Positions 10,803 through 42,777 of a DNA stretch of 64,000 nt are shown here, one piece after another. The translations under genes were made by a program, and so were the position numbers. The first letter of the stretch is position 1; each line of letters opens with the position of its first letter. Location of the stretch: contig JASBVM010000017.1 in the NCBI GenBank assembly GCA_029961055.1, positions 62,001-126,000 on the forward strand. Reading direction: 5' to 3'. This DNA is from Bacillota bacterium (lineage in GTDB: Bacteria > Bacillota > Sulfobacillia > JAIMAT01). The notes beneath the pieces were generated by a model. It did not search any database. It was not told where the DNA came from and saw only the letters and a list, made by a program, of their open reading frames with translations.

Positions 10803-10831
10803 TTGACAGGGTCCGCACCCCGGCATATGCT
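10803..10831 (+). promoter_or_regulatory. sigma-A-type promoter of the selenoprotein operon
   Basis: TTGACA (10803-10808), a 17-base spacer and TATGCT (10826-10831). The -35 is perfect and the -10 matches at four of six positions. Transcription would start near 10838, about 160 bases before the oxidoreductase ATG. Confidence 0.75.
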
Positions 10832-10846
10832 CACCGTACGTGCGGT

Positions 10847-10862
10847 ATACCCGATGGGGTAT
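10847..10862. promoter_or_regulatory. G/C-tract inverted repeat, candidate CstR/CsoR operator
   Basis: ATACCC-GATG-GGGTAT is a perfect 6-base inverted repeat with a 4-base spacer, placed at about +10 to +25 of the preceding promoter. DUF156-family repressors (CsoR, CstR) bind short inverted repeats of this TACCC-N4-GGGTA kind, and a DUF156 gene is the last gene of this operon, so autoregulation is the natural reading. Confidence 0.7.
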
Positions 10863-10997: not shown

Positions 10998-11657
10998 ATG
11001 AGCGAGCGATTCATCTCGCAGGAGGACGCGGCCACCATCGCCTCGATGATGGGCGAGACGAGCGGTACCGCCCAGGTCCTGCTGCTGGTCGGCAAGAACT
11101 GCCGCTTCTGCAAGGAGACGCGGCAGCTGATGGAGGAGCTGCACGAGATCAGCCCCGAGCACATCGCGCTCCGCGTCGTCGACGTCGACGAGGATCCCGA
11201 GGGCGCCTCGCTGGCCGAGCAGTACGGCGTGGAGGGGAAGACGCCGGCCATCATCTACCTGGACGCCGACGGCAACGACACCGGCATGCGCTACTTCGGC
11301 ATCCCCTCCGGCTACGAGTTCGGCGCCCTGATCGAGGACCTGGTCGACGTGGCCAACGGCCGCTCGCAGCTGAGCGCCGCCAGCCTGGAGAAGGTGAGGG
11401 CGCACGACGAGGAGCTGGTGATCCGGGTCTTCGTCACACCCACCTGACCGTACTGCCCCCGGGCGGTACGCCTGGCTCACCAGATGGCGCTGGAGAACCC
11501 GAAGATCCGCGCCGAGGCCATCGAGGCGTCGGAGTTCCCCTCGCTGGCCAACCTCTACAACGTCTTCGGCGTACCCAAGACCGTCACCGACAAGGGCGTC
11601 GACTTCGACGGGGCGCTGCCCGAGCCGATGTACATCAGCCAGGTTCTGGGCGGCTGA
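10998..11657 (+). CDS. selenocysteine-containing protein disulfide oxidoreductase (UPYC), UGA read through
   Basis: Read conventionally, the frame stops at TGA 11445-11447 after 149 codons. The next codons in the same frame give PYCPRAVRLAHQMALENP and continue without a stop to TGA 11655, completing a 219-residue protein with two thioredoxin folds, the length and layout of the PDO/glutaredoxin-like family. Module 1 has CRFC (35-38) and cis-Pro83; module 2 has U150-P-Y-C153 and cis-Pro193 in FGVPKTV. The TGA therefore replaces exactly the nucleophilic first Cys of the usual CPYC. Supporting evidence is the SECIS-like hairpin after the TGA and selC in this window. ATG 10998 follows AAGGAGGAG. 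The likely role is thiol-disulfide, or persulfide, reduction in the cytoplasm. The alternative is a single TGC-to-TGA nonsense mutation, which the intact downstream frame argues against. Confidence 0.87.
11459..11475 (+). promoter_or_regulatory. SECIS-like hairpin inside the coding sequence
   Basis: Bases 11459-11464 (CCGGGC) pair with 11470-11475 (GCCTGG), with one G-U pair, closing a loop GGUAC at 11465-11469. The loop begins 18 nt after the UGA and opens with GGU, the element SelB recognises in the Escherichia coli fdhF loop. Known bacterial SECIS loops lie roughly 16-37 nt past the UGA and carry a G among their first two bases. A competing 9-pair hairpin (11449-11457 with 11462-11470, one G-U pair) sits directly after the UGA. 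Confidence 0.6.
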
Positions 11658-11724
11658 GCACCTGGTCTCCACGATCCCTCGCTGCGATCGCAGGTACGGG
11701 GCGCTGCCCGAGCCGATGTACATC
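11608..11724 (+). repeat. 29-base direct repeat at the 3' end of the selenoprotein gene
   Basis: Bases 11608-11636 and 11696-11724 are identical over 29 positions, offset by 88 bases, and remain similar to the following stop codons (11655 and 11743). The first copy encodes the GALPEPMYI tail of the oxidoreductase. The spacer contains the 12-base palindrome CTGCGATCGCAG (11682-11693). Confidence 0.85.
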
Positions 11725-11745
11725 GGGCAGGTGCTGGCTGCCTGA
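11696..11745 (+). pseudogene. 3' remnant of a second oxidoreductase gene copy
   Basis: In its own frame this segment would read GALPEPMYIGQVLAA and stop, matching the last 15 residues of the preceding selenoprotein (GALPEPMYISQVLGG) with three substitutions. No start or upstream homology is present. It is best explained as the tail of a tandem duplicate whose body was deleted. Whether that copy used Cys or Sec cannot be known from this fragment. Confidence 0.65.
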
Positions 11746-11786
11746 ACGCCGGGTGGAGGGTCCCCGCGGGCGGAGGTGCTGAGCGG

Positions 11787-12053
11787 ATGACCATCGACGA
11801 AGAGCTGCTCAAGGAGCTCATGGCCCGGATGCGCCGCATCGAGGGGCAGGCCCGGGGCATCCAGCGGATGCTCCAGGAAGGGCGGAGCTGCGAGGAGATC
11901 GTCACGCAACTGAGCGCCCTCCGCTCGGCGGTCAACAAGGTGGCGGTCGAGGTGATGACCGCCAACCTGGAAGAGTGCCTGCAGGCTCCCGTGGGCAGCT
12001 CGCAGCGGGAGGCGCTGGAGCACGCCCGCGACATCTTCCTCCGCTTCTCCTGA
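11787..12053 (+). CDS. cstR: CstR-like DUF156 transcriptional repressor
   Basis: An 88-residue all-helical repressor of the CsoR/RcnR/CstR family: RMRRIEGQARGIQRML, then C35 and C64. In copper sensors (CsoR) the ligands are Cys, His and Cys, the His lying four residues before the second Cys. Here that position is N60 in TANLEEC, the arrangement of the persulfide sensor CstR (ENLIEC in Staphylococcus aureus), so the expected signal is sulfane sulfur through a C35-C64 cross-link. ATG 11787 follows GGAGGTG. It is the distal gene of the selenoprotein operon and has a matching operator at 10847-10862. A different metal specificity is possible but less likely. Confidence 0.8.
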   Translation: MTIDEELLKELMARMRRIEGQARGIQRMLQEGRSCEEIVTQLSALRSAVNKVAVEVMTANLEECLQAPVGSSQREALEHARDIFLRFS

Positions 12054-42682: not shown

Positions 42683-42777
42683 TGGCGGGAGCATGTGGGA
42701 ATCGAACCCACCCGGGACAGCCCGTGCCCCACGACGGTTTTGAAGACCGCGAGCGACACCAGTCGCCAGCTGCTCCC
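42683..42777 (-). tRNA. selC: tRNA-Sec (anticodon TCA)
   Basis: 95 nt including an encoded CCA. The anticodon loop CTTCAAA carries TCA at 42741-42743, with stem GCGGT/ACCGT. The D arm is a long stem closed by a 4-base loop TGGT, the variable arm is long, and the T arm is GTGGG-TTCGATT-CCCAC, all hallmarks of selenocysteine tRNA. The acceptor begins GGGAGCA and ends TGCTCCC; the eighth pair expected in tRNA-Sec is a G-A mismatch. Its presence shows the organism can decode UGA as selenocysteine if selA, selB and selD exist elsewhere; none is in this window. Confidence 0.95.

Follow-up and report, generated by a model that had tools for sequence, protein, structure and literature searches.

An in-frame UGA codon in the window, the 64,000-nucleotide stretch of Bacillota DNA analysed here, almost certainly encodes selenocysteine (Sec) in a known kind of redox enzyme, as judged from sequence comparison. 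The enzyme is a protein disulfide oxidoreductase (PDO), and its gene and that of a dithiol CstR-type repressor probably form an operon. The explanation that best accounts for the whole, and in which we have good confidence, is that this operon is induced by reactive sulfur and that its Sec-containing PDO reduces disulfides and persulfides.

A TGA codon at the active site of a disulfide oxidoreductase

The PDO gene (219 aa) lies at 10998..11657 on the plus strand, its ATG preceded by a Shine-Dalgarno-like aggagg. The frame translates as MSERF...FVTPT*PYCPRAVRL...VLGG*, where the sole internal TGA is codon 150 (11445..11447, plus strand). The active-site positions are CRFC at residues 35-38, UPYC at 150-153 and Pro193 within a VPK motif. 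The original prediction, made from the letters of the window, held that the TGA falls on the first Cys of the second CxxC motif and that 69 residues including Pro193 follow before a second TGA; translation together with the Cys of homologues bears out the former, and 69 sense codons are indeed found between codon 150 and the final TGA. Standard gene calling truncates the protein at residue 149, and the half with this active site is lost.

TGA also works as a normal terminator, both the PDO gene and the one after it ending in TGA, which rules out a simple or general reassignment of UGA. A phage origin was also rejected, as no match was found among phage records. Between the PDO and the repressor gene, a partial tandem copy (85%) of the PDO 3′ end is found at 11696..11754 (plus strand). 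It copies the last 59 bases around the PDO end, stop included, and is not present in the same-genus genomes G001 and G002.

The PDO scores 221.2 bits against the NCBIfam family TIGR02187 (PDO_seleno_TRX; curated cut-off 185), and in sequence alignment its two thioredoxin modules, with CRFC and UPYC, align to the solved PDOs 1j08 and 1a8l. The cut-off of AhpF (TIGR03140) is not reached (60 bits against 502.9), the N-terminal part of the profile alone being matched. Zhang et al. recorded the UxxC form in 2006 for Carboxydothermus hydrogenoformans and Symbiobacterium thermophilum, under the name 'homolog of AhpF, amino-terminal domain' (PMC1794560); it is also listed as a Grx-like domain protein. 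Reviews of 2022 and 2026 include TIGR02187 with UxxC and treat this selenoprotein family as predicted, without established function (PMC9312934, PMC13188914). Because the family cut-off is passed and the UxxC form already appears in the 2006 survey and the later reviews, the selenoprotein family is known and not new, while the finding itself is right. The selenoprotein reading of the original prediction stands; the known family, the CstR-like neighbour and the operator went unmentioned in it.

Using tblastn at the tool's threshold, we found a PDO match in 29 of 61 genomes. TGA occurs at precisely codon 150 in 23 distinct sequences (the window's own and those of 22 relatives), and 18 homologous sequences have Cys at this position, which the original prediction had proposed to check. 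Except in one distant paralogue, TGA and Cys sequences have the same motif context. With 23 distinct sequences sharing TGA at one codon and 18 having Cys there, chance is excluded. Decay in related strains, also looked for, is not seen: two same-genus orthologues with 90-91% identity keep the TGA and have no further stops. The exchange is also recent, since genus g27 includes one TGC species alongside two with TGA. On a tree built from 40 sequences, about seven changes between the Sec and Cys labels are needed, at least two of them forced by well supported branches.

Other PDO paralogues were observed as well. The genome of the window (G000) has a diverged Cys paralogue (SPTCSRC, G000:C46:24734, L002) without TGA. 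Three genomes of one genus carry extra PDO paralogues with an in-frame TGA (G024:C1, G043:C1 and G055:C1), one of which, in G043, sits in a 618-codon open frame; these further TGA-bearing paralogues are possibly AhpF-like fusions.

Decoding genes and a hairpin linked to the TGA

The window was predicted to carry selC, and both ARAGORN and Rfam (76.9 bits) identify a tRNA-Sec with anticodon UCA at about 42683..42777 on the minus strand. The search for the remaining genes in the same genome gave selA (G000:C23, 580 bits), selB (G000:C1, 316 bits) and selD (G000:C51, 334 bits). The selD gene itself has an in-frame TGA (G000:C51:79907), as do nearly all above-cut-off selD genes of the class. Among the relatives, own genome included, selA is over the cut-off in all 22 genomes with the TGA form; in G012 and G035, the two genomes that have a PDO but gave no selA match, the PDO is of the Cys form. 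No selB over the cut-off was found in the draft genome G001, despite selA, selD and a TGA gene there.

Downstream of the TGA, computational folding gives a bSECIS-like hairpin, CCGGGCG-GUA-CGCCUGG, at 11459..11475 on the plus strand (+15 to +31 when the T of TGA is numbered 1). Such a hairpin is found in 23 of 23 Sec copies, with a stem of 5-8 bp starting 13-21 bases from the T of TGA and a loop of 3-5 bases that contains GU or GG. Its position is shifted in genus g27. The stem occurs in compensating versions (CCGGGCG/CGCCTGG, CCAGGCG/CGCCTGG, CCGGCCGC/GCGGCTGG and CAGCGC/GCGTTG), and the loop GGU is presumably located about as in E. coli fdhF. The hairpin is missing from most Cys copies, though not from all: L007, closely related to TGA copies, is among those that have it. 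Compared to synonymous resampling, the mean folding z is -1.5 for Sec copies and +0.3 for Cys copies, a contrast that counts as support and not as a strict test since the sequences are related. Folded alone, the window's sequence has its energy minimum in a different helix right after the TGA (CGTAC...GTACG, +5 to +26); we set this helix aside because what the Sec copies have in common is the hairpin at roughly +13 to +34.

The TGA/Cys exchange, the Sec genes and the TGA-linked hairpin all support the predicted Sec enzyme, and they bear on two other ways to read the gene. A decaying pseudogene or a sequencing error, with a Cys codon turned into a stop, would account for the in-frame stop, and the partial copy of the PDO 3′ end nearby would suit it too. 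This reading is refuted because many families conserve TGA at the one codon, and we give it practically no credence: the sequences of 22 relatives have the same TGA without other stops, selA, selB, selC and selD are all in the genome, and the hairpin is conserved. It is also very improbable, if slightly less so, that UGA acts mostly as a stop, giving a 149-residue one-module protein as the main product and only minor, selenium-dependent read-through. Module 1 has a CRFC site of its own, and bacterial Sec insertion competes with termination; against this, the C-terminal stretch of 69 residues is well conserved in the family, and the full-length protein is therefore under selection.

A CstR-like repressor and its candidate operator sites

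Directly 3′ of the PDO gene lies the gene of a CstR-like CsoR-family repressor of 88 aa with two Cys (11787..12053, plus strand; PF02583), an arrangement found in three same-genus genomes. A CsoR gene also adjoins the PDO in G012 and G042, and CsoR genes are located within about 4 kb of it in G005, G008 and G033. The repressor has Asn in place of the copper-ligand His, as does its best PDB hit, 7mq1, and both Cys and the Asn are kept in G001 and G002. The sole other PF02583 gene in the genomes of this genus keeps the copper His (read in G001 and G002). The sulfane-sulfur sensor ScCsoR needs both Cys and has the site ATACC-n6-GGTAT (PMC7533328).

Upstream of the PDO, a sigma-70-like promoter, TTGACA-17-TATGCT, is found at 10803..10831 on the plus strand (10/12 matches, 0.1 expected), and its TTGACA is conserved in the genus. 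Just downstream of this promoter, the palindrome ATACCCGATGGGGTAT (ATACCC-N4-GGGTAT; 10847..10862, plus strand) fits the published ATACC-n6-GGTAT site and is a candidate CsoR/CstR-type operator, kept in both same-genus relatives amid diverged flanks. The motif is common to copper CsoR and sulfane-sulfur CsoR proteins (PMC7533328), so the candidate operator cannot by itself name the effector.

Allowing up to one mismatch, the motif occurs seven times in G000, compared to none for the reversed control. The sites precede a thioredoxin-reductase-like (trxB-like) gene (L092; TIGR01292, 287 bits, under the cut-off of 343), a YruB/Uxx-star-type glutaredoxin (L095/L100) and an FTR-catalytic-like protein with a TusA/YedF-like tail (L094). 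Another site is located between a Trx-like gene and a gene of the CoA-disulfide-reductase (CoADR) family (L097; TIGR03385, 450 bits, under the cut-off of 579). The FTR-catalytic-like protein (L094, 5158-5802, G000:C51) has the pattern CPC..CPC..CHC, and its closest NCBIfam model is FtrB_double_U. An SQR-like gene (NF049943, 340 bits, under the cut-off) is preceded by a site in G001, and its G000 copy has one at the same place with two mismatches. The sites at C51:90949 and C9:169799, two of the seven in G000, do not evidently fit this picture. The latter (L092, 7800) was rejected as an operator: it sits in a hairpin between convergent trxB-like and korB-like genes and is probably terminator sequence. 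A match to it is also found in G001 and G002.

Outside the genus, the operator is found within 600 bp upstream of the PDO in 7 of 19 bacterial loci (reversed-pattern control, 0), and in many class members the PDO lacks both this operator and an adjacent CsoR gene. No CsoR operator was found near the archaeal PDO loci examined. Sites in G008 precede CoADR-like and SQR-like genes, a site in G005 precedes a TrxR-like gene, and sites in G012 precede a glutaredoxin-GroES pair and a CcdA/TlpA-like pair; where a gene lay outside the NCBIfam scans, its name (for instance CcdA, GroES or HIT) was given by eye only. The reversed control also matches in G012 and in two low-GC Sulfobacillus-like genomes, so single sites in these three mean little.

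The same selenoprotein could instead belong to a copper-stress operon whose repressor senses Cu(I). The repressor is of the CsoR family, its operator type is common to copper CsoR, and the PDB titles of its best hits, 7mq1 included, read copper-sensing. We take 7mq1 to be from work on a pneumococcal persulfide sensor. We consider copper sensing unlikely: Asn stands at the Cu-ligand His position, whereas the paralogous CsoR in the genus retains His, and the sites precede SQR-, CoADR-, TrxR- and Grx-like genes, with no copper ATPase, chaperone or export gene recognised at the operator sites examined.

Proposed role and comparison with known systems

For the reactive-sulfur operon, we propose the following mechanism. 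UGA150 would be decoded as Sec by SelB, tRNA-Sec and the directly downstream hairpin, which would place Sec at the nucleophile position of the C-terminal UPYC site. By analogy with PDO and thioredoxin chemistry, the N-terminal CRFC probably takes electrons, which would come from the co-regulated thioredoxin reductase, and relays them. ATACCC-N4-GGGTAT is most likely the binding site of the repressor, both at its own promoter and at those of the thioredoxin-reductase-like and other sulfur redox genes. A persulfide or polysulfide would crosslink the repressor's two Cys, release it and so induce a chain, thioredoxin reductase feeding Sec-PDO, for the reduction of protein disulfides and persulfides. 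In S. aureus, Trx-like proteins are known to reduce protein persulfides (PMC6196236), and in E. faecalis a CoA-persulfide reductase is under CstR control (PMC9405070).

A more specific version, which we put forward tentatively and hold to be somewhat less than an even bet, is that in this Bacillota class the CstR-type repressor runs a selenium-based depersulfidation chain (TrxR to Sec-PDO) together with SQR-like and CoADR-like enzymes. The advantage of Sec would be that a selenolate reacts faster with persulfides and with sulfur-oxidised thiols and is resistant to over-oxidation. Evidence from the operator and the neighbouring gene points to a specific candidate role for the PDO, in reactive-sulfur stress and fed by the co-regulated thioredoxin reductase, and the operator sites supply a set of candidate co-regulated genes.

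The new part appears to be the control of the PDO by a sulfur-sensing repressor, predicted from the gene neighbourhood and the operator sites, alongside other sulfur-handling enzymes. A full-text search of the open-licence literature found no report joining a PDO or TIGR02187 selenoprotein with a CsoR-family regulator. The PDO of the window shares with TIGR02187 (PDO_seleno_TRX) a full-length match, two thioredoxin modules and Sec as the first residue of the second CxxC. It differs in belonging to a distinct genus, known here from draft genomes alone, and in adjoining a CstR-like repressor. With the archaeal PDOs 1a8l and 1j08 it shares the two-module layout over residues 6-217 and the CPYC and VPK motifs, the archaeal proteins having Cys where the window PDO has Sec. 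Finally, the repressor resembles the CstR-type sensors (CstR of S. aureus and E. faecalis, CsoR of S. coelicolor and YrkD of B. licheniformis) in its CsoR family, its two Cys, a candidate ATACC-n6-GGTAT site and a predicted regulon with SQR-like and CoA-disulfide-reductase-like genes, whereas the putative regulon described here adds Sec-PDO, thioredoxin reductase, glutaredoxin and FTR-like genes.
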